From: Macrotrachela quadricornifera
Lineage: Eukaryota; Rotifera; Eurotatoria; Philodinida; Philodinidae
DNA length: 64,000 nt
Reading direction: 5' to 3'
Assembly: GCA_022393335.1 (NCBI GenBank)
Contig: JAJEKB010020545.1
Coordinates: 226,839-290,838, forward strand
The position numbers and the translations under genes were made by a program. The notes beneath the pieces are model-generated. The model ran no database searches and was not told where the DNA came from. It worked only from the letters and a program-made list of their open reading frames with translations. Positions 25,210 through 58,464 of this stretch are shown one piece after another. Position 1 is the stretch's first letter; each line of letters opens with the position of its first letter.

Positions 25210-26008
25210 TGTTTTTCAATAGGCTGTTCATTCATCACATCGATAATTGTGGAAATTTTTGCGATTTTCACATTTCCCATCTGTTCGAAATTTGTTGAGA
25301 CTGAGCCTCATAGGTTTTGCCACCCTTGCTCACCAGGACTCTAACGGCTAAATGAGACAAATTGTGTAATTTCTCCGTTTAATACGTTAAAATGCGTCAA
25401 AAAAGGTCAAGTGCCTTGAAGATCATTGATTTCTTTCATTCTTCGATTGAACGCGTTACAAAGCATTGTTTCCTGCTATTTTTACCTTCAATGTGTCAAT
25501 ACTGCGTTTTGGGGTTTTTCTGTCACCATGGTACATTTTTTATAAGTTCGACATTGCTGGAAAATTAAATTCAGATTTAATTCTAATCTAGAAAAACATA
25601 ATTATTCGAAAACTGTCATATGTGGACATGCTACAATAATTTGACTAATTTTAGTTGCTGTTAATTGTCAGGATATAAGTAAAAAAATTGACACAGATCT
25701 AGTTAAAGATAATTGGTGAGATCTTAAAAATTTGGATGAAATTAAACAGTTTATTAAGAAAGATCGATGCTATTCATAATAATAAAAATTTGAAAAAATA
25801 TTTAAATCAACGACCACCGGATGTTTATTAGTTTAATGAACTCAAAAAAAATATCTATAGTGTCTCTATCGTCACTGTCTCAACTCAGTTATGCATTCTC
25901 CACAAAGAAAGGAATAAACACATTTCAAAGTAGAAAAATGAAGTGAGATAAATATTACAGATGATAAGAACATAAACAAGTATCATATCTCCATGCCTCA
26001 GAGTTAAA
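25210..26008. other. No gene seen; 5' flank of the glycosidase-like gene
   Basis: Non-coding, AT-rich. The part nearest 26009 should hold the promoter of the next gene, but no distinct element can be named. Confidence 0.4.
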
Positions 26009-28401
26009 TTGGTGAAGATGCATCTTCTTGTGTTGCTCGTTCTTATAGTTAGATGTTGGTGTGATATAAATATATCAGTAGATCAAAAAGGCGGGTATAA
26101 TATTAGTGTTGATGGTCGTATATGGCTTCGTTCAGCTCGAACAGCTATATATACAGATGACAAATGGTATTCATCAGCTGATGATTCTCTACCATTAGTT
26201 AATATAAATTATGCACAAGGTAATGATTCAAATTTAGGTTTTTGGAATGAAACTCAATTGATCTATGATCTTGTTCGAAGTGGAATACATACAAAAATAG
26301 TCGGTCATATACGTCAATGGAATTCAATTTCTGCAATTACATTTCATTTGGATACTGGTGATCAAGTGATGACTAATACAATTCCTCTTGATATGGAACA
26401 GGTTCGTACAGTTTTTCCATCATTTTATATCGAACAAATAGATGACAATGATCATAGAGGTTATTTCACGTTTTCAGGTAAGATCTTGTTTTTTTGGATT
26501 ATTTTTCTTTAGCAGAATATTTTCCATTTAGGAATGATGACAGGTGAAGTTAATAGACATGCAGGTAGTTGGGATCCAACAAGTATAGTCATTGATTCTG
26601 GAATGGAGTGCGGCCCGACAGTTATTTTTAATTTCACTCAACAAGGTGAAAATGATCTATTAATTCTTTCACCGTTTTCTCAATTTATGGCAACATCATT
26701 AAGTCAAACAAATAATATATTAGAATATGGTGTTATGGGTTCAATGTCATATGTGCCAGCAAATTATAATCATTCAATGATTATCTTCTATTCACCAAAT
26801 GGAATTAATCAAGGTATCAGAGAATGGGGTAAAACAATGCAAAAAGCATATAATCGAACAAATCAATATCGTCTTAATGATTTAACTATTAATTATCTTG
26901 GTTATTATACAGATAATGGTGCTTATTATTATTATAATACAGAAAAAGGAAAAAATTATGAAGAAACTTTGATTGATATTTATCATCAAATTCAACTTCC
27001 ATTTCATTATATTCAATTAGATTCATGGTGGTATTATAAAGGTCTTAAAGATGGTGTTTCTCAATGGACACCACGACCAGATATATTTCCTAATGGTCTT
27101 CAAATAGTTCATCGTCGATTAGGAAATCTTCCTTTAGCTGCACATAATCGATATTGGTCATATGATACTGTTTATAAACAAAATTATTCTTTTGTTCTTG
27201 ATAAACGAAGTGAAAAAGCATTGCCTGTAGGTAATGATTCATTTTGGATTGATTTATTCAATCAAGCATATGATTGGGGTCTTATTCTTTATGAACAAGA
27301 TTGGCTTAATCATCAAACAATGGATTTTTTACCAACACGTACTGATATTCATATTGGACGTAATTGGTTAATGTCAATGGGTAAAGCAGGTGAAAAATTA
27401 GGAATAAATATACAATATTGTATGAGTTTATCACGTCATATTTTACAAGCTTTAGAAATTCCACGTGTCACACAAACACGAGTATCAAATGATTATGCTC
27501 TTCATTTGATTGTTCCAATAATGTCTCAATGGAATATTGGAATATCAAGTATGTTTGCTGATGCAATTGGTTTAGCACCATTTAAAGATGTTTTTTGGTC
27601 TAGATCATTCGAACATGGTCATCCTTATCCACCACTTTCTATGGAAATATTACCTGAAAGAGAAATTTTAATTGCAACTCTTTCAACAGGACCTGTTGCT
27701 GCAGGTGATGCAATTAATTATACAAATATTGAACGTATAATGAAATGTTGTCGTAAAGATGGATTAATTTTAAAACCAGATCGACCATTAACTATGATTA
27801 ATAAATTAATATCTGATTGGGCTTTTTATTTAAGTGTTTCACAAGGAGAACTTTATTCAACAAGAACAACAATGTAAGTTTTTTTTAATAATTTTAATCT
27901 TCTAAATATAATTTTATATTTAGAAATAATCAAACATTTCATATTATTTTTGCATCAGCTATGAAACGAGATTATTTAATTTATCCTTCAATGATTGAAT
28001 CCCAATCTGGTGTTATTTGGTCATATACTAATGCAAATGTTCTATCAACTTTCAATAATACTAATCCTTTGAATGTTTCAGTTAATCAATGTAATGATTT
28101 ATCAATATGTCTTTGGTATGTATCACCTTTATGGGAATTTAATGATTCATTTAAAACAAAATATGCTTTTCTTGGTGAATGGAATAAATGGACAGCTGTT
28201 AGTCAACAGCGAATCGATTCTATTGTCATTAATTCAGAAAAAACTCAAACAACAATTACTTTTCAAGGTGAAAGTAAAGAAATAGTTCAATTAGCTGTCT
28301 ATCATCATTCTTTACCTTCCTCTATTATAAGTTGTCAAATTTCACCTAATAATGCTGTTGGACAGCTTGTTATTACTCCTTCAGATGTTTTCTGTCATTA
28401 A
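26009..28401 (+). CDS. Secreted glycoside-hydrolase-like protein, clan-D-type TIM barrel (putative)
   Basis: Exons 26009-26477, 26532-27873 and 27924-28401 give 762 residues. Introns are 54 bp (GTAAGA..TTTAG) and 50 bp (GTAAGT..TTTAG). MHLLVLLVLIVRCWC (start at 26009 or 26018) is a signal peptide. An N-terminal all-beta region of about 250 residues precedes a barrel-like part with QLDSWWYY (Asp320) and LYEQDWL (Asp413). These look like the beta-strand Asp sites of GH27/GH31/GH36-type alpha-galactosidases and relatives, with Asp413 my candidate nucleophile. A C-terminal beta domain ends FCH. AATAAA starts at the last base of the stop codon (28401-28406). Many N-glycosylation sequons fit secretion. 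The glycosidase call is an inference from motif style; substrate unknown. The gene is intact. Confidence 0.72.
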
Positions 28402-44434: not shown

Positions 44435-47400
44435 TTAAAGAAAAACGAATTTATGTATTTTGTCCATATTCAATGCTAGCATTTTCATATACAAGATACT
44501 CTTCGAAGCATCATATGTCCATTTGATTGTTGGTGTTAAATCTTGTCCATTCCATACGACTCTTGTTGGTTGTTTATCGATACCGAATATCTTAATTTCA
44601 TCTAATTTAACTTCATTGCCCATTTCTAGATATTTATATGTCCACGGTTCAATTGTTAAACGATTTGAATTATAGTTAAAAATAAAATAATTATAAATAA
44701 ATCTATTATATGTATCAATTGATTCACCATCATCCCAGAACAAATCTCCATGAGCATTTTGTTTCTTATCAAGTGCTATAATTAGATACATTGGTTTCTT
44801 ACGTGATGCTACAGTATTCATAGCTGATTGTTGATGAGGTATAATAGTACCACCACGTAGATATAATGGTATAAAATCTAATGGTGCTGAAACTGTTATT
44901 TGACCAAGTGTTGTTTGTTCTTCACCTGTATAATAATCAAACCATCGTTCTGTTGTAGGTAAATAAAGTGATTTATTAATATGATTTTCATAAATAACTG
45001 GTGCAATAAGTAATGATGAACCCCATAAAAATTGCTCATCAAGTGACCAACATTCAGAAATAGATGGAAATACATGAGCCATTGAACGAATAACAGTACC
45101 ACCAGAAATATGAACTCGATGAAATAATGTATATAAATATGGAATGAGAGTATATCGTAATTCAACAGCATGTCGATTTGATATGATAACAGATGCTGAA
45201 AATATTCCTGGATCCTGATCAATATAGCCAAAGCCATTGTGATTTCGAAAGAATGGATTAAATGCACCTAAAATAATTAAATAAAATACTCAAAAACTTT
45301 TATTTTGTTGTTATAAAAAAGAAGACAGTAAGAATTCTAACCTAATTGCATCCATCGTTGACACATTTGTTCTGTTACATTATGAAAATAACCACAAATA
45401 TCAGCACCTATATAAGGAATACCAAATAAATTAAATTCTAACATTCCAATAATATTATATTTCAAATGTGCCCAATCCGCAGCATTATCACCAAGCCAAT
45501 GACCACTAAATGCACCTGAACTTGGAAATGTCGATCGACTGATAATAACTGATCGTTTATTTTCGGTTGCACGTGCTGCTGGTAAAGTTGCTATTATTTC
45601 TGACCATCCATATAAACTATGTACATCGTAATGATTATAAATTTTTCCTTGACCATTTGTTTGTTCACTAATCATACATAAAGTTTTATCTGATATATAA
45701 TCACCACATATTGCTGTTTTATATGGTGGATTATCTAAAGGTTCATCAGTTACAGGACAATGTAGATTCCATAAATCTGGTCGATTTCCTGTTGAATTCC
45801 AGTTCCATGGTTTATCTTTATTCGTATCAAAATTAGCTGGTTCACTAAAATTGTCAAAGTTGATAAATGAATGATCAACAAAAAGACAAAGAAATGTTCT
45901 TACTTCATATCAATCCAAAGTCCATCGAATTTCAATTTCGAATGGTAATTAAGGATTTCTGATTTCCACCAATCGACTGTTGGAGGATAGAAATAATCGG
46001 GAAAGACGGTCTTACCTTAAAAAGAAAAGAATGAGTCTGTGAATAAGGAGAAAGAGTAATATTGCCGTTATGATTAGAAATTAACTAACCATCAGGCCAT
46101 ACATATCCGAGCAAATTCCTATTGCCAGTTTCATTGAATTGAAGATTTCGACGTTCAGGCCATTTAATCCATATATTAGCTTTTTGTCCTTCAGTAAAAG
46201 TCGAATAATTTTTCTCTTCAGAATCAATAGCTGGATCCAAAATTGTGATAAATTTCATTCCATTGTCATGTAACCAATTTACATATTCAGGTATACCAGC
46301 AAAGTCAATTGGATTCCATATGAAATCAAGTCTTTTATAAAAGTAATCTATATCTCCGTACCTAATAAACAATATCGATAATTATTAAAAGAAGAAGATT
46401 TTTCACTCACATAACATCCAGAGGAATACTTGCATTTAATGTTCTCATCATTGCTGCTCGCATATTATCAAGTGAATTATAACCATATCGAGAAAGTTGA
46501 AATCCAAGTGCCCAATAAGGTGGCATATAAGGTTTACCAATAATTAATTGATATTGTCGAATAACATCTTCTGGTGTTGGTCCGGCAAAAAAGATTATAT
46601 CTAAAATTCCACCAATTGTTCGATAAGTAAGCATAGCTTGATCAATATCAAATTCATCAAATTTATAATCTTGAGCATTTGAATTAAAAATAAATACACC
46701 GAAAGCTTGTCCATCAGATTCAATTACCATGTAGAATGGATGAACACCATAGAGATTTTCATTGATTCCTGTCGGCCATTGATCACGTGCGAATGCTCCG
46801 TAACGAGCAGAATTTTGAAGTACATGACGAAATGATGAATGAGTATTTTCACCAAAACCATAAATATTTCTTGATGGAATTGTTGTAATGATTTGAATAA
46901 ATTTATCATCATAAATGAAACCATTGGCAAAGAATGATGTGTCAAATAGAATTGACTGTGTAGTATTGCGTTGAACCCGAAATCCGACTTGTTCATTTGA
47001 AGTTTTTGTCATTTGAAATTTAATTTTAGGTGGAAATATTGTTGAAGCTGATGGAATCCATTGAATAGGAACAGGAACTTCATATCGTTGTGCGTTTGCA
47101 TCGCGTATAATCATACGTATCATATCAGTACCAGAAACACTGACTTGAACATCTAAATTATTAATATCATGATTGAACATGGAAAAATTATTTGATGGAT
47201 TCGTTGATAGACGAGTAAGTTTGTATTGTGTAGTAGCATTCGAAGGTTGATTTGGTCCTCCAGTTAAACTATAACCACCCTTTTCTATTGGAATATAACA
47301 AGTAGGAATACCTGATCCTCCATTCGAATCCCATATACATCCACGAGCTGTACATGATTGATTAGTTATATTTAAAGTTTGGTTTTTTGAAACATCAAGC

Positions 47401-47828
47401 ATGCAAAAAGATTTGTATTCATCAAGATCAGGAAAGCAATCAATTCGATACTTGGAATCATTTTTCACAATCTTAGGTACTTCGATGGTTATTATGTCTT
47501 GATTCTCTTGTGCCATCGCATCAGTATTATTCATTGTTAATGCTGATCTTTCAGTTTCACTCATTTGCATATGACCTTGAATCACAGAAAGCAAGTTTTT
47601 ATTATTCGAACTTAGTTCGATTGTGTAACATTGAATTTCATTTGGAAGTGCTTCATCATCATACAAACAATTACGTGCTAGACATGCTTGTTTCGAATAA
47701 TCGGCAAATGGTAATTTCTCACGTTCCGAATAACAATTGATTCGTTCCTCGTGTTGATACGGCTGGTCACCCGTATAAACGGTAATCGAAAATCCAACAA
47801 GAAGGAAAATCGTAATGAAACGATGCAT
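44435..47828 (-). CDS. GH31 alpha-glucosidase (maltase-like), secreted, with two trefoil domains
   Basis: Exons: 47828-46411, 46361-46090, 46015-45904, 45844-45342 and 45267-44435, all in phase, 1,045 residues. Introns are 49, 74, 59 and 74 bp with GT..AG ends. MHRFITIFLLVGFSITVYTG is a signal peptide; an in-frame ATG 34 codons earlier (47930) is less likely. Two trefoil (P-type) domains follow (ACLARNCLYDD, SCTARGCIWDS), then the GH31 N-terminal beta domain (NIYGFGE). The barrel carries the nucleophile Asp599 in WIDMNEP, completed across the third intron, and the acid/base Asp720 in HWLGDNAADW. The C-terminal part has PLYLRGGTIIP and GDLFWDDGES. It should cleave alpha-1,4-linked glucose from starch- or glycogen-type sugars, in the gut or secretory path, like animal maltase-glucoamylases. 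All key residues are present. Confidence 0.93.
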
Positions 47829-47930
47829 CCTATTGAATATACTACAGAATACACTATACTTGTCCAATGAAAAATAGAAGTAAATGAAAAGTAGGGAAAA
47901 TTTGTACTCAACTAACGTATTGGGTTTCAT

Positions 47931-49348
47931 ATAAGTTACGTCTGAATATTCGAGAAAATTTTGTAAACCGTGCGTACTCTTTATTATGCTCTGCTTCGTT
48001 GCATATGTGTGAAAGTGTGCGTTGAACTATGCAAGTTTGAGCAAGAGAAAAGTTCAAGAATTAAAAGGTTCACTAGCTTACAAAATAAGAGTGAATAGTG
48101 AAGTATGCCATTTATGAAGCAATGAAAAGTTTTTTCTCACAAAAATTAGTCCGTTCCATTTTCTGCTATAAAGCGTGAACTACATTCATTCAATACGAAT
48201 ACAAACCTGACTTACTTGTACAAGAACAATAGAAATGTCTCGAAATTGATGTTCTTTGAATGAATAAAAAGGTCAACTTATTAAATCACAGGCATACACA
48301 TCTATACATATCTTTTGATTTGTTGGTTTGAGAGTGATGGGGTTAGAAACGATATTTCATCAAATCATAGTTAATGTAATCTGGTTACAAACTATATTAA
48401 AGAAAAAATAATCATAAATCTTCTTTGACAATAAAGAATGCAATACAGTAAGTAGAGACAAAGTTACGATTATTATTCTTTATCCTGATCATTTTTTTAT
48501 TTGAAGTGTTCAGAATAAAGATGATAATAAATCTATCGAAAAACGAGACGCTTGTAATAAATATTAAACGTTATCGTTGGCAGAATAGTTTCTTTGAATA
48601 CAACACAGCAAATTCGAATAAGAAAATGTTTTGCTTCAAAGTAATCAAAAGTACTAATGTTAATAATTGGAAAGAGAAAAGTTTCTCAACCAGCATCATT
48701 GTTGTGAAATAGTATGAAGTTTTCAATCATATACATTTGATTTGAAGCAATGTTGCTATTATCTAAATTTTAAAAGGACATATTTGTTAAATTTATTATG
48801 GAAACCTAATGTCAAAAAAGTCTTGTTTCATTTTAGTAACTATTTTTAGTTTGTAGCTATTCACAAATGAGCTAATTGACTGAATGCAAAGTCATTCAAA
48901 TTCTATCTATTGGCCTTACATAAAGAATAGTGAAACCCAAAGGTAATAATGAAATAGTTTTCATAATCCAATACAAAAAAATTATGATCAACATCAAGTA
49001 AAATATTATCTGCAAAACTAGCTGTAACATTAATAGTTTTGCTCCATATATATACGATCTTTATAGCATTTATTTTCTTGAATTTGAATAGCTGAGATTG
49101 GTTATTTCCACAATTGGCTACCCACAAATTAATCTTAATGTCAATAGAGATCCCATTAAGTCATGTAAATCGTTCAAACCTCTAGATTTAAGTCTTATTA
49201 GGGTGAGGCTTTCTTTCGAGCTATTAAGTATCATTAGACAATGTGAAGAACAATTCTGGGACACTTTATCATTGAATTATTCGTTTATTCTCAAATAAAT
49301 AAACCTCAATAGATTTTAACATTAATAATAATATAGGATTTATATAAT
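47931..49348. other. No gene seen; 5' flank of GH31 gene
   Basis: AT-rich spacer between the GH31 gene and a small foldback. Open frames at 48506-48712 and 49098-49298 have no recognisable motif. Confidence 0.4.
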
Positions 49349-49580
49349 ATCAATATAAAATTAATTGAATAAGTAGATGAAAATATATTTATTCAAATAA
49401 ATTAAGATATATACGTAATGAAACTAGTTGTTATACAACATGAAAAATAATAATAAGTAAGTACTAGAGCTTTTAACTCATCTAGAGTCATCGTCAGTAG
49501 ATATTAAGATTGAAATGCCACCCAAATTTATTTGAATAAATATATTTTAATCTACTTATTCAATTAATTTTATATTGATC
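49349..49580. repeat. 232-bp inverted repeat (foldback)
   Basis: Arms of about 54 bp: ATCAATATAAAATTAATTGA and onward on the left, inverted on the right. The loop contains CTAGAGCTTTTAACTCATC, similar to the centre of the 17474-18781 element (CTAGAGCTTTCGGCATATC), which suggests a related small element. Confidence 0.75.
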
Positions 49581-49926
49581 TCAATAGATCTCAAAGATTT
49601 ATTGATATAATGGTCATTTAGGCTCTAAAAAGATGGCTGATCAACAGACAGCTACATAAAAAACCAAGTTATCACTTTAGTAATCAGTCTTCAAGAATTC
49701 TAGTATATTTATAACAGAAAACATAAGCACTTTAATTATACAGTAATTGTTATTTTGCCATATTCAAAATACTTAAACTGATAGTGGAATATTTAAAGAA
49801 ATTTGTGTTCTTCATGACAATCTAACTTGATTCATAGATATATATATTATCAACGTGAATGTAAATGTTCTTATCTCCACTACTCGTCAACCAACGTTAT
49901 AAAGATAACATAAACGGTGAAAATTA

Positions 49927-52041
49927 ATGTTGCGAAAGTGGTGGCACAAATATTGTTGCTCTCATCATCGAAATCAAGTAGACAGATCATCTGTTGCATC
50001 AACTAATATTGTTCTAACTTCTTATGAACAAGTTTGGCCACCGATACCAATCAATTGGAAATATGTTAGCGCATCTTATACTGAAAAATTCAGTGTATAT
50101 CATCGTCAAAATGAAAAGGATGATGGTCAAATATTTAAGGTTGTTTTGCTCTCAGAAAGGGAGAACTTAACTACATATCAAGTAAAACTTGATTATCTTC
50201 AGAATATCATTGATCATATCAATATATTTTCTGATGTTAATGAATGCACTGATTTTATAGTCAGAGCTACTAACTACAACATTCAATTGCTTATTTTTCC
50301 TCCTGTAAAACAAGAAGTGCTATTATTGATTCGAAATATGAACCAGGTGCAAAATATTTATATCTTTAGCGATGCAGATTTTAATAATCAAGATGATATT
50401 ATTCGTACCAAGATCAAATATGTGTCGTTCGAAAATATCGAGACTTTTGGAAAGCTACTTTTAGAAGAGAAAAAACGGCTTGATAACATGACATTTACTT
50501 CAACTAATATTAATCAACTTAATTCATCTTTCATGTATTCTGTATTGCTGAAAGAAATTCTTCTTGAATTAGAATATGATGATGAAACAGCAAAACAGGA
50601 CTTCATTGATTACTGTCGCTATGAATATGCTGATAATGTTGCTACATTACGGACGATTAATCGATTTGCAATCGACTATTGTCAAGAACGTGTTATTTAT
50701 TGGTATAGTCAACCATGTTTTTTCTTTGAATTACTCTATAGATCATTGCGAACTCAAGATATTGAAATTCTAATACGCATTTCGTTTATATTACGTCATC
50801 TTCACAAACAGATTGATCATCTCCATTCAATGCAATTCTCATCAATGTCTTCAGTATTCTTTCATGTTTACCGAGGACAAGGTATGAAACGTAAAGAATT
50901 TGATCAAAAAATCAAGAATAAAATAGGTGGTCTTCTTTCGTTCAATAGTTTTTTATCGACCAGTCGAGATGCTGACGTCGCTGATATATTTATTGTTCGT
51001 AATGATCTGGATAGTGTAGCCGTTCTTTTCGATATAGTTATTGATAGAAATATATCACGATGCCCATTTGCTGCTGTTTCGCAGGACTCTGCAATTACTG
51101 ATGAAAACGAAATCTTGTTTTCTATGCACAGCATATTTCGTATTCAGACAGTTGAAGAAGATGTTGCAAATGGTACTTGGCGTGTGAGTTTAAGTTTGAC
51201 GAATGAGAATGATCAGCAGTTACATACGCTCACAGCATATGTACGGAAAATAATTGATGCACCAACAGGATGGAATCGTTTGGAGAATCTAATGATGGAA
51301 ATGGGAAAATGGAATATGGTCAAACCTCTGATTGAAGCGTCGTTATCGTCCAGCTTAGAAGATAATAACAAACGAGCTTATATTCATCATCAGTTGGGCG
51401 TAGTCAATGCAATGATAGGAGATTATCGGATGGCACTCGAACATTACAAAAAATCGCTGAATTTAAAATCTCCAAAAAATTTATTAGGATTGGCATCTAC
51501 CCATAGTGGTATTGGCTCAGTGTTAGAAATACAGGGACAACTATCAGAAGCATTAAACGAATATAAATCTGCTCTATCATTTATTCGTAAACTGGAACAA
51601 CCTAATATTGAAGCTCTTACCAGTGTACAAAGTAATATCGCTGCTGTCCTGCAACGTCAAGGAAAATTGCTTGAAGCATTAGATATACATGAAGAATGTC
51701 TTCGTCTTGAGATTGAACATTTGCCAGCATTACATCCACACTTAGCGATATCATATTCCAATGTAGCTTCGATCTACGATGATTTGAATGAGTGGGAAAC
51801 TGCACTGAAATTCGAACTAATAGCATTAGATATTGAAGAACGTTCGCTTCCTTCTGATCATCCATCACTTGCTGTGACGCACTCAAACATAGCATTGACT
51901 CTTCATACTCTTAATCGTAGAGAAGAAGCACTAGCTCATCTTCACAAAACAATTGAAATAGAATCAAAATATTTACCATCTGATGATCCATCGCTTATAC
52001 GACATCACAAACTCTTAGAAAAATTTAGTAGAGAAATATGA
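49927..52041 (+). CDS. ADP-ribosyltransferase (R-S-E type) fused to TPR repeats
   Basis: A single-exon gene of 704 residues. An N-terminal part of about 300 residues of unknown role precedes an arginine-type mono-ADP-ribosyltransferase domain. It carries the Arg of HVYRGQG (Arg316), the Ser-Thr-Ser motif in FLSTSRD (344-346) and the catalytic E-x-E in DENEILF (Glu393, Glu395). TPR repeats, kinesin-light-chain style, run from about 470 to 700 (YIHHQLGVVNAMIGDYRMAL, HLAISYSNVASIYDDLNEWE, SLAVTHSNIALTLHTLNRRE). No signal peptide, so probably cytosolic. All three catalytic elements are present, so it should be able to transfer ADP-ribose, probably to arginine, with the TPRs choosing partners. This architecture is common in bdelloid rotifers. 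The gene lies between the GH31 gene and the Rep-like relic without shared regulation. Confidence 0.9.
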   Translation: MLRKWWHKYCCSHHRNQVDRSSVASTNIVLTSYEQVWPPIPINWKYVSASYTEKFSVYHRQNEKDDGQIFKVVLLSERENLTTYQVKLDYLQNIIDHINIFSDVNECTDFIVRATNYNIQLLIFPPVKQEVLLLIRNMNQVQNIYIFSDADFNNQDDIIRTKIKYVSFENIETFGKLLLEEKKRLDNMTFTSTNINQLNSSFMYSVLLKEILLELEYDDETAKQDFIDYCRYEYADNVATLRTINRFAIDYCQERVIYWYSQPCFFFELLYRSLRTQDIEILIRISFILRHLHKQIDHLHSMQFSSMSSVFFHVYRGQGMKRKEFDQKIKNKIGGLLSFNSFLSTSRDADVADIFIVRNDLDSVAVLFDIVIDRNISRCPFAAVSQDSAITDENEILFSMHSIFRIQTVEEDVANGTWRVSLSLTNENDQQLHTLTAYVRKIIDAPTGWNRLENLMMEMGKWNMVKPLIEASLSSSLEDNNKRAYIHHQLGVVNAMIGDYRMALEHYKKSLNLKSPKNLLGLASTHSGIGSVLEIQGQLSEALNEYKSALSFIRKLEQPNIEALTSVQSNIAAVLQRQGKLLEALDIHEECLRLEIEHLPALHPHLAISYSNVASIYDDLNEWETALKFELIALDIEERSLPSDHPSLAVTHSNIALTLHTLNRREEALAHLHKTIEIESKYLPSDDPSLIRHHKLLEKFSREI

Positions 52042-54439
52042 TTTTATTTGACAATATAACTATTTGACAAATCATCAAAGTTTTCAATGAATAGAAATTT
52101 CTTTCTTTTCCTTCAATTCAAATGTTTGAAAGAGATTTATTTTGAAGATCCTAAAGAAGATGTAATGTTGGGTAATCAATAATTACAACGTTTTTTTTCT
52201 TTCTTCGAAGAGATGAAAAAAGAAAAATATGTTTATTTAACCAATTGTTTCGTTGCAAAAAATAGTCTTTTACTTCTAATACTCTTAAAGTTTGTTTCTT
52301 TATTTCAACTAATTTCTACTCAACATGATGTTCAAATAAAATATCTTCTTCTTTCGCTATATCATCCAGATCGTAATGTTTCTTCGAATTATTGAGTGTC
52401 GACGACTTAAACTTCTGTATTTATCTTTATTTATAAACATCCTTATCGATCTGTTTCGCAATCGATTCTTTTTTAAAAGACTTGAAAATACGACTAGTTC
52501 TGCTTTATCAATTATGGAATGCTTGTAAAAATATCTGTTCTATATTAAAAATGAATAGTTAAGCTATAAATATTGCTAAATCGAACATCTACGACTAATT
52601 GAAAAACTATATATTTCGCACGTCTCACTTAATAGACTACGAATAGAAGAACATGCGATAGTCTAGTGTTTTGTGGGCCCTTAGGAAACTGAACAAGTGT
52701 TCACTACGAATCATGTCATTCCGACATTACTCACATAAAAGTGAGAGTAAAGGTTGGAATACATACAAGTCATCTCTCTTAATGAAAGTGATTACCAAAA
52801 GACAAAGATATACGAAGCACATACACAAGCATATCGATCTTTTTATTCATTCTGTTGGTTGTGACTATTGTATTTATAAAAGACTTCTGTAACTAATCAA
52901 GAAATTAATTTAGTTACTCAGAAACTAATAGAATGTATCAATTCATGTATGATTGTAACTCTCTTAATTGCCCTCTGTTTTTTGTGTACTCAAAAAATGA
53001 GTACACTAGAATCGGTCCGTGTTTCCGTCGAGCCGGTCGTTTACACGATAATTCTTGGCAACTACATCCGATTGTGCTGAAATTTTATACCGAGAATTGT
53101 TTCATCAATATCTCAGTCGAGTCCGGAGATGAGAATGATTCGTCAAGAAATGGTTGAGTTATTGCAAAAGATTGTTATTGTTGACCAGACCATCCCGGAA
53201 GGGGATACAGCGCTATTTTTCCAAAAAACAATTTTTTCTCCGAATTATTTAAAAAATATATATGTATCGACTCAGTTTTTAACGCTGATTCGGAATATGA
53301 TATTAATTTTGAACCAAATCGTAGTTTTTTAGCTAAAAGTTGTCTAAACAAGGTCTCAAAATGTACAAAAATGGTATTCCGAAACGAATGTGCCTAGATG
53401 TCTCAGGTGACTAGTAGTGTGGGGATTTCTAAATGCATGATTTTGTAGCTATTAAAATGGGTTATCACATGCAAAAAAATCCGAACTCGATTGCTAATAA
53501 TATTGGTGAATTATTATAAAAATACTGATGTCTCTGTTTATCATATATCTCCCATTGATCCATGATGTTATTTTTGACCGTAATTCCGCTAGATACAAGT
53601 ACAAATCCATCCTAAAATGATTCTTCCTAACCAGCTTTCCAAGCTGAACATGAGTCTGAACTCAGTTTCTGTGATTTCTAAAGAAATTGTATCACTCTGA
53701 GAGTAGAGTCAATGGTCACCAGATAGAGCTGCCTATAGTAGGATCCCTGCTAACTGAGCTTCCTAATTTTTTTATCCTTACAATTTAGTATCAAGATATG
53801 TGTCTTGACGAGATCTATGTCTGGTAGAAAAATAAGCAAAGACCTTGTACACCACGTGAAAAAAGTCCAAAATACTACCTCCCCGAAATGTAGTATTTCT
53901 TCAGATTTACGCCGTTTTTGACTTATAACACTTCTTTTATTACGTATCTTACTCATTTGAATAGAATGAATTTGTAGCTTAAACTGTGTTTTGTCAAATT
54001 CAGACAGCCCCTAGCTCAAATGACCAAGCCGTTCATGAAATAAGGTTAGAATGCTGTGCATAGACTTTCGATAGCCAGTTTTTAGGTAGTTCGATCAAAA
54101 TCAATTTCTCGTCAATTTTCTTTACTTTTCGGAGAACACAGAACACTGGGATTTAAATCTGAGGTTTTCACATTTATTCATATTATGAAAATGTTTCATA
54201 AGTAAAATAGTATATTAGTATTCATTCATCACATAGTATTTATTTCATAAATTTAATTTAAGATTAATATATTAATCTCATTGAGACGAACAAAGAGAGA
54301 GAAATGAAAAAAGATAAAAATAAAACATAAATGAAGGTTCACTCGGATCATAAAGCACATGGACATTAATTATTGACTCACTACACACACACGGGAAAAA
54401 ATGAAAACAAATAAAGAGAGAATTCATTCTATTTCTTAA
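52042..54439. other. 2.4-kb stretch without recognisable genes
   Basis: Short frames only (52213-52395, 52671-52892, 52933-53157, 53129-53332). A GC-richer patch at about 53010-53050 (CGGTCCGTGTTTCCGTCGAG) stands out but has no known match by eye. Confidence 0.4.
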
Positions 54440-56604
54440 CTAAAAACGTTTATCATCGGATTGATTGGGATTATTACTTTTAACAACCATGGATGATACT
54501 TGTTCCCCATTACCATCTGTTACTGCTGTTGCTGCTGCTGTTTGACGACGACGACGATCACGTACTTCAGCCCATCGACGTTGTTCATCAACAAATTCTT
54601 TAGGATGGCCTAATAGTTGACAAATTTGACTACTGGATGCAATATCCACTGTATTGGAATTTTCATGTTTATCAAAATATGGGTCCGGACCTTCAATTAT
54701 TTAAAGTGTAAATACATTATTTCTGTTTTTTTTCTTTTTAGTTTTTACCCGTTTTATAGACGAAAGAACGCTTATTCCAGTAGTCGACCTCCTATTGTTT
54801 CTTTTCGATGAGAAGTGATGCAGTTAAGGAACTATCATCACCAGAATTAAGAAGAACAATTGCTGGCATCGTAACATTAATGGTCACGGTTACTTGGTAT
54901 TTATCGGTAACCTATAATTATCATTAAAATTCATTAGTTTACCTTTTTTCTGGAGAAATTATGATCGTTAAATTTGTCACAAGAAATGTCGTCAAATATT
55001 ACATATTGAGCTTGATCATTCCAAGAATTCAAGCTCCATTGCTTCTTAAAATAACAATATTACCGGGCAATGATTTTGCAAAAGATGTTTTGCCTAAATT
55101 AGATTGTAAGTCCAAATATCTGTCTGATCGTATCTGTCGTTGCAGGACCAATTAAAATTAAACATTTTGATCGATTAGGGTTTTAAAAATTTTCGATTAT
55201 CCATTTTGTAACCGCAGCATCTATAAATACAAACAGCAATAAGAATTAAAATAAGTAGAACAAACATACGAACCTGTGATGTACAATCTGGAAACGACAA
55301 ATCTCAACAAAATTCTTTTTCTTGTAAATTTTGACGCCGTTCTTCAGCATGTTTATAAACGTAATTGAACGATTTTTGAAAGCTTAAAATCATCAAAAAT
55401 AGATATATGTGTAGTTTTTTTTTATAAATTATTAAAGAAATCAAATTTTCAACTAACTTATAACTACGTTGCATAAATTCGTATAGCAACCTGTCTCGGA
55501 CATAGATCATAGCCTTCGATGCGCTCTTTTCAGCAAGTGAAAAAGATGTATCAGCAATCTTGTCTTTGTTTTGATGATGTTCTTCAGCTTGGGTCCGGAC
55601 TGTTGTTCACTTTGCTGGTGGTAACTAAGGTGACGATACCGTCGTTACAAGATTGCTTACACCAACCATTGTGCTGATCAGTGTAGAAGGCTGACCTTGA
55701 TCCTGTTGAAAATCTTTCGCAGAAAATGAGTCACATTCAACGAAATCACCATCTAGGTACAAAAGTTTCAAATTATTCATTCTTTTTCTATTAAAATCAA
55801 ATCGTTTTACCTTTCTATATAAATGCATTCCAAGCACAGTTATTCTTATGATTTACCGGTGTATTTATCCAAAAAGAATTCATGTTTATTCGTCAAATCC
55901 TTAAAAATAATCTGTATGTGTAGACGTTGCTTGGACGTTGTTAGTGACTTTTCACTCGCAATACAAATGTATTGGACCTTATGTTGTTTAAACTTCTTTA
56001 AAATATCATCAAGTTTTTCCTCTATATAAAAATAAAAAATAACCATCGCATGCATAAAAATTCTTTTAAACGCAAGAGAGAGACAATCATCTCTTGATTC
56101 AAAACAACTCCTACTTGTCATATTTGTCCAACTAGTTATAGCAAATGATTGAGTAGACATACGACAATGATTTTTTTTACGACGACGTGCCGTTTCTGCA
56201 CCTTCCAAATCGAAATTACTTTCACCAGTAGTCATTGCTTTATCTAAATTATAATTTTATGTAGGAAGAATGAAAGAAAAGAACGTTATGCCAAACTCAA
56301 ATTACTTGTGTTTTATTTTATATAAAGACATACCTTGATGACCATATATAAGAAAAGCTCGATTATTGGAGTTAGACACACTGATACAGTTAATTTGTGA
56401 ACGTGAATAGGGCATATGATAATTATTATGAAGAGGAGCAGTTATTGCAGCAGCATAGTTTATGATCGATGATGGTAATTCTTAACGAAATAGAAAGGAA
56501 ATTTTACCTTATAGATCTTATGTTTTTAACACTAACGATCTGGAACCACTTCGATATCATTGTTAATATCGACTGATGACGTCGTTGAAGAAGTAGAATT
56601 CATT
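54440..56604 (-). pseudogene. Decayed, intron-rich gene related to CRESS-DNA virus Rep
   Basis: Readable exons on the minus strand: 56604-56537, 56480-56334, 56243-56115, 56021-55857, 55752-55663, 55599-55458, 55382-55304, 55220-55134, 55093-54943, 54911-54749 and 54690-54440. Most junctions are GT..AG and keep phase. The order of motifs is that of a circular ssDNA-virus replication protein: an FAITSW strand (HUH motif I position), RLHIQI (motif II), DGDFVE (usual after motif III), a P-loop split as GPATT and GKT, VIFDDI (Walker B) and AIVLLN (motif C). Breaks: stops at 55304-55306, 55183-55185 and 54792-54794, a one-base frameshift near 55060, and an AT instead of GT at one donor (55133). 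A clear motif III YxxK was not found. I infer an old endogenous copy that gained introns and then decayed. Family assigned from motifs only. Confidence 0.65.
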
Positions 56605-57513
56605 TCTAATAACGCTCCCTCTCATTTGCGATCATAAGAAAATATGATTTAATTTTCGAAATTGTTTTGAATTTTTCGTTTCGTTCTTTTGAATAAGCAG
56701 ATTGGTAAATTTTCGAATTAAGTTGGAATTTAAAAAATTGATTAAGATTTTGTTTTTTGTTAAAAAATATTAATTTAGTTATATCTGAAAGAGATTTTTT
56801 ATTAACGAACTGTAAGTTGTAGGTGTATCATTGTTTGTAATTGTATGTGGTTATACAATGGAGAGGAATCAAATTATTTTGATTATTTTACTTTAGTGAA
56901 CTGTTTTGATCCGATCCTAATGAAATGAGAAGATTTTTGTTTTTTCTTTTTTTTCCTTGTGGAAGTATAGAATTTGCGTAATTCGTGAATCATGAATGCT
57001 ATAATGAAACTTCAATACTAAAGAAGTACAAAAGCAAGATGTATTGGTGATAACTCGTGAATTAAATATGTTTTAGGAGAGTTAATTGAAATTGTTTTGT
57101 ATAAGATTTTATTATGGAGTAAGTGTTGATTCATAATGGCGCTGTTTGTAATGGATAATATGTATTTTTGTTTTTTAGTGAATTTATTTATATAGATTTT
57201 ATCTTTTGAAAGTATTGTTTATTAAATTTTGAAGTGTATTTTTTTAATTACTATCATTGTATTCATGTTAAGGAAATCAATTTATTAGCTAGTATCAGGG
57301 CTGCGAAGTGTATCTCATTTGGAATTTTGAGCTTTCCATACCATAAACTGATTTTTCATAGATATAAACTGTGTTGTACAATGATTCTCACAGGGTTACT
57401 GTAGTGACATTTATAATGAACAATATTGTTGAAAAATTGCTCATAACGATGATTAACATTTGTTTTATTCATTCAGTTTTATTTTATATAAAGGTATTCA
57501 ATTTTCAGATTAA
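56605..57513. other. No gene seen
   Basis: AT-rich spacer between the Rep-like relic and the piggyBac element. The part next to 56604 would be the old promoter of the relic. Confidence 0.4.
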
Positions 57514-58460
57514 CACATTCAACCCGATGGGTCCCACTATATTCTAACAAAAAACTTACTAGAAAAACATTTTCTTTTTCTTTTTGTACAGCAGAAGATT
57601 ACGCGTAACGTGTCATATGCTCTGTCCTTGCTGTTGTAGGAGTCGTTGATTTCATTGAATGGCGTTTCCCGTTAAGCAATCAAGACAAAAATCTTTATCA
57701 TAATCAGAACAGAAAGTTTTTATTGTTTTTCTTTACTGTCGCATGACTTGCTTCTCATGATTGTTGTTCCCTGGTTTTTCTCATAACGGCTAGCACCATA
57801 CTCTTGGACAATGCGCGCAGATCCTTTCTTTTGTTCGATCTTGTGGTCAGCAAGTTTACGCCTAGGATGATTTCGTGACTTTTGCCTAGGACCAGGATTC
57901 AACTTTTCGAGTGGCATACCAAATAATAAAGACTGTACAATACTTTTCACAAAACTGCAGAATTGTCACTTCGCTTATAGCGTAGTCTTCATTGCATATC
58001 AAATAGCTATTAACTATTGTGCTCCCAAAAAAACAATTCAAATGCCATCTTTCAGTATCATTTTGTTGACCACCTAAGATATGTATCGGATGCCAATAGC
58101 TGATTTGACAAATCACTACTTTTCTCTCTTCGTTGTAATCTGTAAATACTGTCCAAGGGAACGGTGCTAGCTGCTGTGAGAAAAATCAGGGAATAACAAT
58201 CGTGAGAAGCAAGTCATGCGCCAGTAAAGAGAAACAATAAAAACGTTCTGTCCTGATTATGATGATGATTTTTGTCTTGATTATTTTAGCGAGAAGCATC
58301 ATACTATGCAAGCAATGATTCCAACAACAGCAAAGGTAGAGTAGATGACGCATTGTGTGTAACTTCCTGCCTAAGAATGCAGACATAGAAAGTGTTTTTT
58401 AGTAAGTTTTTAGTTACAATATAGTGAGTCACACCTGTAGGTCTCATGGGGTTGAATGTG
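57514..58460. mobile_element. piggyBac-type element, internally deleted, TTAA target duplication
   Basis: The left end CACATTCAACCCGATGGGTC and the right end, reversed CACATTCAACCCCATGAGAC, are flanked by TTAA at 57510-57513 and 58461-58464, the hallmark of piggyBac insertion. A second matching block (CACTATATT) lies just inside each end. At 947 bp it is too short for a full transposase and keeps only a C-terminal remnant on the minus strand. Confidence 0.85.
57720..58140 (-). pseudogene. C-terminal remnant of a piggyBac-like transposase
   Basis: One minus frame (58116-57886) contains HLNCFFGSTIVNSYLICNED, the pattern of the piggyBac region where a helix with IVNAY/IVNSY precedes the C-terminus. 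A second frame (57950-57720) continues with SLLFGMPLEKLNPGPRQKSR and a basic, charged tail. The two overlap with a frame change, so the remnant is broken. The catalytic part is deleted. Confidence 0.5.
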
Positions 58461-58464
58461 TTAA

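Follow-up and report, generated by a model that had tools for sequence, protein, structure and literature searches.

Open reading frames for Rep, the initiator of rolling-circle replication, have already been reported beside the reverse transcriptase (RT) in Terminons, the Athena Penelope-like retroelements of bdelloid rotifers (Arkhipova et al. 2017, as summarised in the relevant section of PMC6431247). Rep cargo of Terminon-type retroelements is a kind already in print. The same section places a hammerhead ribozyme at the 3' end of Terminons, ahead of a run of (ACACCC)n or (TCACCC)n. Two further systems invite comparison. Endogenous CRESS-DNA virus elements likewise are viral-type Reps that sit in a host genome and bear stops and frame changes, and geminivirus-type Reps (PF00799, Gemini_AL1; PF08283, Gemini_AL1_M; PDB 7vg8 and 1l2m) show the HUH motifs in the order considered below. 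A separate link between CRESS viruses and bdelloids is the crucivirus capsid, which resembles a protein of Didymodactylos carnosus according to the part of PMC11832652 that treats it. Here, a Rep-like pseudogene is described from a 64-kb stretch of the bdelloid rotifer Macrotrachela quadricornifera (JAJEKB010020545.1), referred to in full as the window. The gene is decayed and is probably a stranded member of a bdelloid Rep family of geminivirus type that spread at least partly as accessory cargo of Athena/Terminon-type retroelements.

The pseudogene occupies 54440..56603 on the minus strand and was delimited by three-frame translation, tblastn with family proteins and an intron model, which gives ten exon pieces and nine introns. 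Exons 1 (56603-56537) and 2 (56480-56334) were placed by the intron model. Three-frame translation and alignment to family proteins located HUH motif I (FAITSWTN) in exon 3 (56115..56243), and HUH motif II (LHIQI) with the motif III region in exon 4 (55811..56021), where the frame changes near 55862 and one in-frame stop occurs. Exon 5 (55458..55752), with DGDFVE, a linker and two in-frame stops, and exon 6 (55270..55382), with one, were placed by tblastn and the intron model. Translation and tblastn put the first half of the P-loop (ILIGPATT) and one in-frame stop in exon 7 (55134..55220); the second half (GKTSFAKSL) and Walker B (VIFDDI) fall in exon 8 (54943..55093), separated by one frame change. 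The 40-nt intron 7 (55094..55133) lies within the P-loop and has no GT donor. Exon 9 (54749..54911; tblastn and intron model) carries motif C (AIVLLN) and one in-frame stop. Translation, family comparison and the intron model assign to exon 10 (54441..54690) a C-terminal piece, GPDPYF, similar to the GPDEYF with which family members end. Split or shifted, the Walker A, Walker B and C motifs of a superfamily 3 (SF3) helicase are all present in this copy.

In the final model the introns measure 31-93 nt. Eight of the nine follow GT..AG, the exception being the P-loop intron, and on our reading they appear consistent in phase. Three-frame translation thus recovered HUH I, HUH II, DGDFVE, the split P-loop, VIFDDI and AIVLLN on one strand in the order named by an earlier note on this DNA. 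Its account of an intron-rich gene joined mostly by GT..AG in phase also held, and its figure of about eleven exons gave way to a count of ten pieces.

The earlier note had proposed searching the separate exon translations against Rep families. No Rep match was obtained in this way: single exon pieces had no Rep relative in Pfam, PHROGs, the PDB, the protein collection, phages, plasmids or IMG/VR, over a partial set of piece-by-library combinations, and returned chance-level matches at most, a phage exonuclease at E 6 being one example. The plasmid Reps of p4M and pCPa, taken as references, were of no help, and neither was a motif scan of IMG/VR; these reference loci, the two contigs from the scan (L004 and L005) and P0001-P0120 were left out of all later steps. 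Relatives came instead from the rotifer's own genome, in which the HUH exon had 36 matches at E up to 10, some of them in long open frames. One of these is a 421-aa frame (L013), whose residues 205-330 were used as query to collect a family of 93 proteins from 115 candidates, all at E < 1e-15.

The 93 family proteins were then searched by tblastn against the whole window. All except one matched, yielding 225 HSPs that lie without exception at 54-57 kb, with none elsewhere in the 64 kb. The best linked match (P0187, residues 172-568) reached E 4.6e-42, and the HSPs were collinear in the four best proteins inspected. As a sequence comparison, this match is far beyond chance. It refutes the idea that the motifs arose by accident in AT-rich non-coding DNA, to which we assign virtually no credence despite the lack of a Rep match for individual pieces in Pfam or the PDB. 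The description of the locus as a decayed, Rep-like rotifer gene with HUH and helicase parts is borne out by the family match together with the profile searches below. In HUH sequence, the nearest relative of this copy other than its homologue shares only 50% identity with it, and a tree of the HUH exon piece (50 columns) did not resolve relationships.

Every family protein with an organism name is from a bdelloid (Rotaria, Adineta or Didymodactylos), and several are called Replication-associated protein in UniRef. The proteins reach 737 aa and have long N-terminal extensions. The geminivirus Rep catalytic domain, PF00799, matched 26 of 29 long members at E 0.01 or better, five of the six scores inspected falling under the Pfam curated cut-off. 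A profile of the 29 members matched nothing in the PDB at E 0.01 except geminivirus Rep catalytic domains, represented by two distinct sequences (7vg8, E 5e-6; 1l2m, E 4e-5). A structure was predicted for P0191, one of the three members without a PF00799 match; its mean pLDDT was 56.6 and its pTM 0.32, and most of the HUH block had pLDDT of about 67-88. This prediction matched the TYLCV Rep domain 7vg8 at a target TM of 0.78, in third place by E-value behind two entries for Vientovirus Rep, and gave low-TM matches to SF3 helicases of papillomavirus and parvovirus. In the viral library, the named entries among the 50 matches listed were all Reps, and crucivirus Reps were among the better fold matches. 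The support for the HUH fold comes from the profile and predicted structure of the family and not from the window copy.

Walker A and B are open in L013 and in L015, and Walker A, Walker B and motif C are found in L031 and L032. The catalytic tyrosine of motif III (Y287 in A1) is invariant in the alignment of the 29 members. The family is thus a predicted geminivirus-type Rep, combining an HUH nickase with an SF3-type helicase. It shares the HUH motifs and motif order of geminivirus Reps and differs from them in its N-terminal extensions, its introns and its location on the chromosomes of an animal. Two tandem Rep helicase copies (L032 and L033, contig C3971) lie about 1 kb apart and are 73% identical; one of the pair is nearly complete and open, with introns.

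The window copy itself is dead, with six in-frame stops, frame changes and a phenylalanine where the catalytic tyrosine should stand. The same Rep gene is found in a homologous stretch of contig C4569, where it has nine in-frame stops; three stops fall at the same codons in both. GT..AG is kept at seven of the nine introns there. Over 521 codons the two copies differ by a pS of 0.066 and a pN of 0.067, a dN/dS of 1.00, in a comparison where the frame of one 10-codon piece (E8a) was shifted by a single base and the ends of several pieces lay a few bases from the final exon ends. The three common stops and this ratio indicate that decay began before the homologues split and that coding constraint has been absent since, as expected under neutral drift. 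Purifying selection on the window copy is not supported, the ratio covering only the time since that split. A domesticated gene still working at this locus was considered and dropped on account of the same ratio. A ciliate-type code (TAA/TAG = Gln), suggested by the first three stops encountered (TAG, TAA, TAG), was also dropped; two of the six stops are TGA.

The introns were compared across the family. For introns 2-6 and 9 of the window copy (six of nine), HSP borders place a counterpart at the same position in L032. Intron 8 has an acceptor side common to both, with the window donor about nine residues earlier, and L032 lacks the P-loop intron 7. In L013, introns 2-4 are missing and a single open frame runs through the HUH half. 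Of the 39 rows scored for the P-loop intron, 25 have it, 11 lack it and three are undecided. Counted by locus, 22 have it, among them the window, its homologue and all 13 loci of a dispersed repeat described below (subfamily A), and eight copies are without it. In the literature searched, the primary Terminon paper excepted, no description of the intron structure of these Rep frames was found. Penelope-like elements keep introns.

These introns bear on the proposal drawn from the earlier note: integration of a CRESS-DNA virus gene at this locus, host use lasting until many introns had been acquired, and then decay. The homology to geminivirus-type catalytic domains, the nine introns of the copy and the lack of detected retroelement parts at the locus all agree with such a history. 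However, the introns are shared with copies that lie inside dispersed repeats and are therefore very likely older than the window locus. Since they are common across the family, no host use of this copy is needed to explain them. Richness in introns alone does not show that a viral-type gene in a bdelloid was adopted by the host. Furthermore, IMG/VR gave 135 pattern matches and not one confirmed relative, so that no close viral relative is confirmed in that collection, and the two homologous copies show no coding constraint between them. With introns found family-wide, kin in retroelement-like units and neutral change since the split, the proposal is not supported, and we regard a viral integration of this kind as very unlikely. 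Endogenous CRESS-DNA virus elements differ from the present case in the same respects: here the introns are common to many loci and part of the family is linked to retroelement-like units.

That linkage was seen in the genomic copies. The helicase piece of L013 had 76 genome matches, which collapsed to 49 loci. All-against-all comparison of 50 fetched rows defined subfamily A, a dispersed repeat of 13 loci (L042, L045-L050, L053-L055 and L057-L059). Their longest matches span 1.0-2.9 kb at 81-94% identity, and L043 is related to them more loosely. Four subfamily A copies fetched at 8 kb (L060-L063) share one repeat, which extends over 5.3 kb between L060 (the same locus as L047) and L061 (the same as L050); masking affects part of L063 and 3.4 kb of L062, where the match is also interrupted. 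In L060, L061 and L062, RT-like motifs occur in same-strand frames 5' of Rep, the RT of L060 being broken.

RT placement was assessed with one RT piece as query, 150 of 619 candidates scored and a range of 10 kb. A scored RT was found near nine of the 49 helicase loci, in every instance on the same strand and 3.3-7.8 kb 5' of Rep, where uniform placement expects 0.33 (P 4e-11). Eight of these loci belong to subfamily A, and the ninth is on contig C4464, which was outside the all-against-all comparison. Together with the broken RT of L060, nine of the 13 subfamily A loci have a same-strand RT 5' of Rep. For HUH loci, two of the 20 entered (from the 36 matches) had an RT within 20 kb. The RT was identified by a weak match to Pfam RVT_1 (E 0.09) and by motifs recognised by eye, and we read it as Athena/Penelope-like. 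Most matches in RT-linked Rep copies contain stops, some of them in introns, and no intact copy was found among those inspected. With five RT-region queries, tblastn at E 1e-3 gave no hit over the 64 kb of the window, nor in L008 or L009.

Two side observations concern the same units. The first 105 residues of P0134, a predicted protein of Rotaria sp. Silwood2, match the RT-like frame of L060 and a later part matches Rep; the gene model probably joins two parts of a Terminon-type unit. In L061 (2-2253, minus strand), the telomere-type repeats of the Rep-bearing unit are followed directly by more frames on the same strand, one of them an unknown ORF and another a divergent ORF that is again RT-like, a chain that by analogy resembles what is described for Terminons.

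The 3' ends of the copies were examined within 1.5 kb. Tandem (A/T)CACCC units, read on the Rep strand, follow the gene on its 3' side in seven of the 13 subfamily A loci, and also in L018, L021 and L022; in L015, such a unit lies at the 5' end of the Rep frame. Hammerhead_1 matches stand directly before the C-rich repeats in L061 (20.9 bits), L048 (22.8) and L022 (25.1), and L061 has a second match upstream (24.1). All of these scores, 20.9-25.1 bits, are below the Rfam gathering score of 34, at which no hammerhead was found in L060-L063. Hammerhead-like folds are accordingly counted in two of the 13 subfamily A loci (L061 and L048). A sub-threshold search of a set of eight loci matched two, including one of the five that belong to subfamily A. 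The stretch in L061 reads CTGATGAG ... CGAAAC ... GTC before a long (TCACCC)n run, and we take these three elements to be parts of a hammerhead core. No tandem (A/T)CACCC repeats were present in the 64-kb window, L008 or L009, and no hammerhead was found at 52.5-58.5 kb of the window.

Subfamily A has a Terminon-like context, with an RT at nine, C-rich repeats at seven and sub-threshold hammerhead-like folds at two of its 13 loci. In the fetched copies Rep lies between the RT and the 3' end, whereas the Terminon section of PMC6431247 describes RT-bearing 3'-terminal fragments. The window copy differs from Terminons as a pseudogene with no RT, hammerhead or telomeric repeat detected nearby. On this basis it is filed as kin of Terminons, an orphan relative by sequence and not a demonstrated Terminon.

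A small chance is given to a reading in which the Rep copies without detected RT are a self-standing mobile replicon of rotifers, or a gene family adopted by the host, with exchange between it and Terminons; the gene described here would then be a relic of that family. Weighing against the preferred reading, a scored RT within 10 kb was absent at 40 of the 49 helicase loci, with 150 of the 619 candidates scored, and the P-loop intron is found in some copies near which no RT was detected. Copies of this kind also bear on an early domestication: Rep would have been adopted in bdelloids and have acquired its introns while serving the host, Terminons would have captured it later, and the window copy would be a dead paralogue of the host gene. 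Stop-free single-exon pieces of other copies gave dN/dS values of 0.23-0.75, with one listed pair at 0.93 and several rows representing one locus twice, so that copies without detected RT look constrained; Terminon arrays, moreover, often enclose host genes according to the same section of PMC6431247. Such constraint is also expected of the genes of mobile elements, and the copy number, the dispersal over contigs and the presence in several genera look element-like. We consider early domestication unlikely.

Under the preferred reading of the window gene as stranded Terminon-type cargo, an intron-containing Rep gene would have been copied within a unit comprising RT, Rep, a hammerhead ribozyme and telomere-complementary repeats. 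One Rep copy may then have ended up at the window locus, arriving on a Terminon, with the RT and the 3' end either lost or never copied. Coding capacity would have disappeared before the two homologous chromosomal copies separated, with neutral drift since. Rep presumably acts in the cycle of the element, for which circular intermediates are a published suggestion. A supposed one-off virus fossil becomes one of dozens of related loci, its introns tied to a family that is partly borne by retroelements. Comparison can now address the source from which Terminons obtained a geminivirus-type Rep, and whether Rep is under selection within them.

Some further observations concern the homologous contigs and the rest of the window. 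Between 54300 and 56800, the exons of the dead gene diverge more from the homologue L008 than do its introns (113 of 1639 versus 20 of 525 sites; Fisher p 0.009), with bounds that differ from the final model by up to about a dozen bases; the higher GC of exons may be behind this gap. At 48699-53543, about 4.8 kb that include a 706-aa open frame (49921-52041) correspond to only about 0.8 kb between flanking matches on C4569, a presence/absence difference between the homologous contigs. Long open frames at 25976-28401 and 44435-48026 may encode glycoside hydrolases. A foldback, MITE-like element lies at 57510-58464. Its end arms measure 28 and 39 nt, each end carries TTAA, and the inner arms (57678-57810 and 58150-58282) are 89% complementary.
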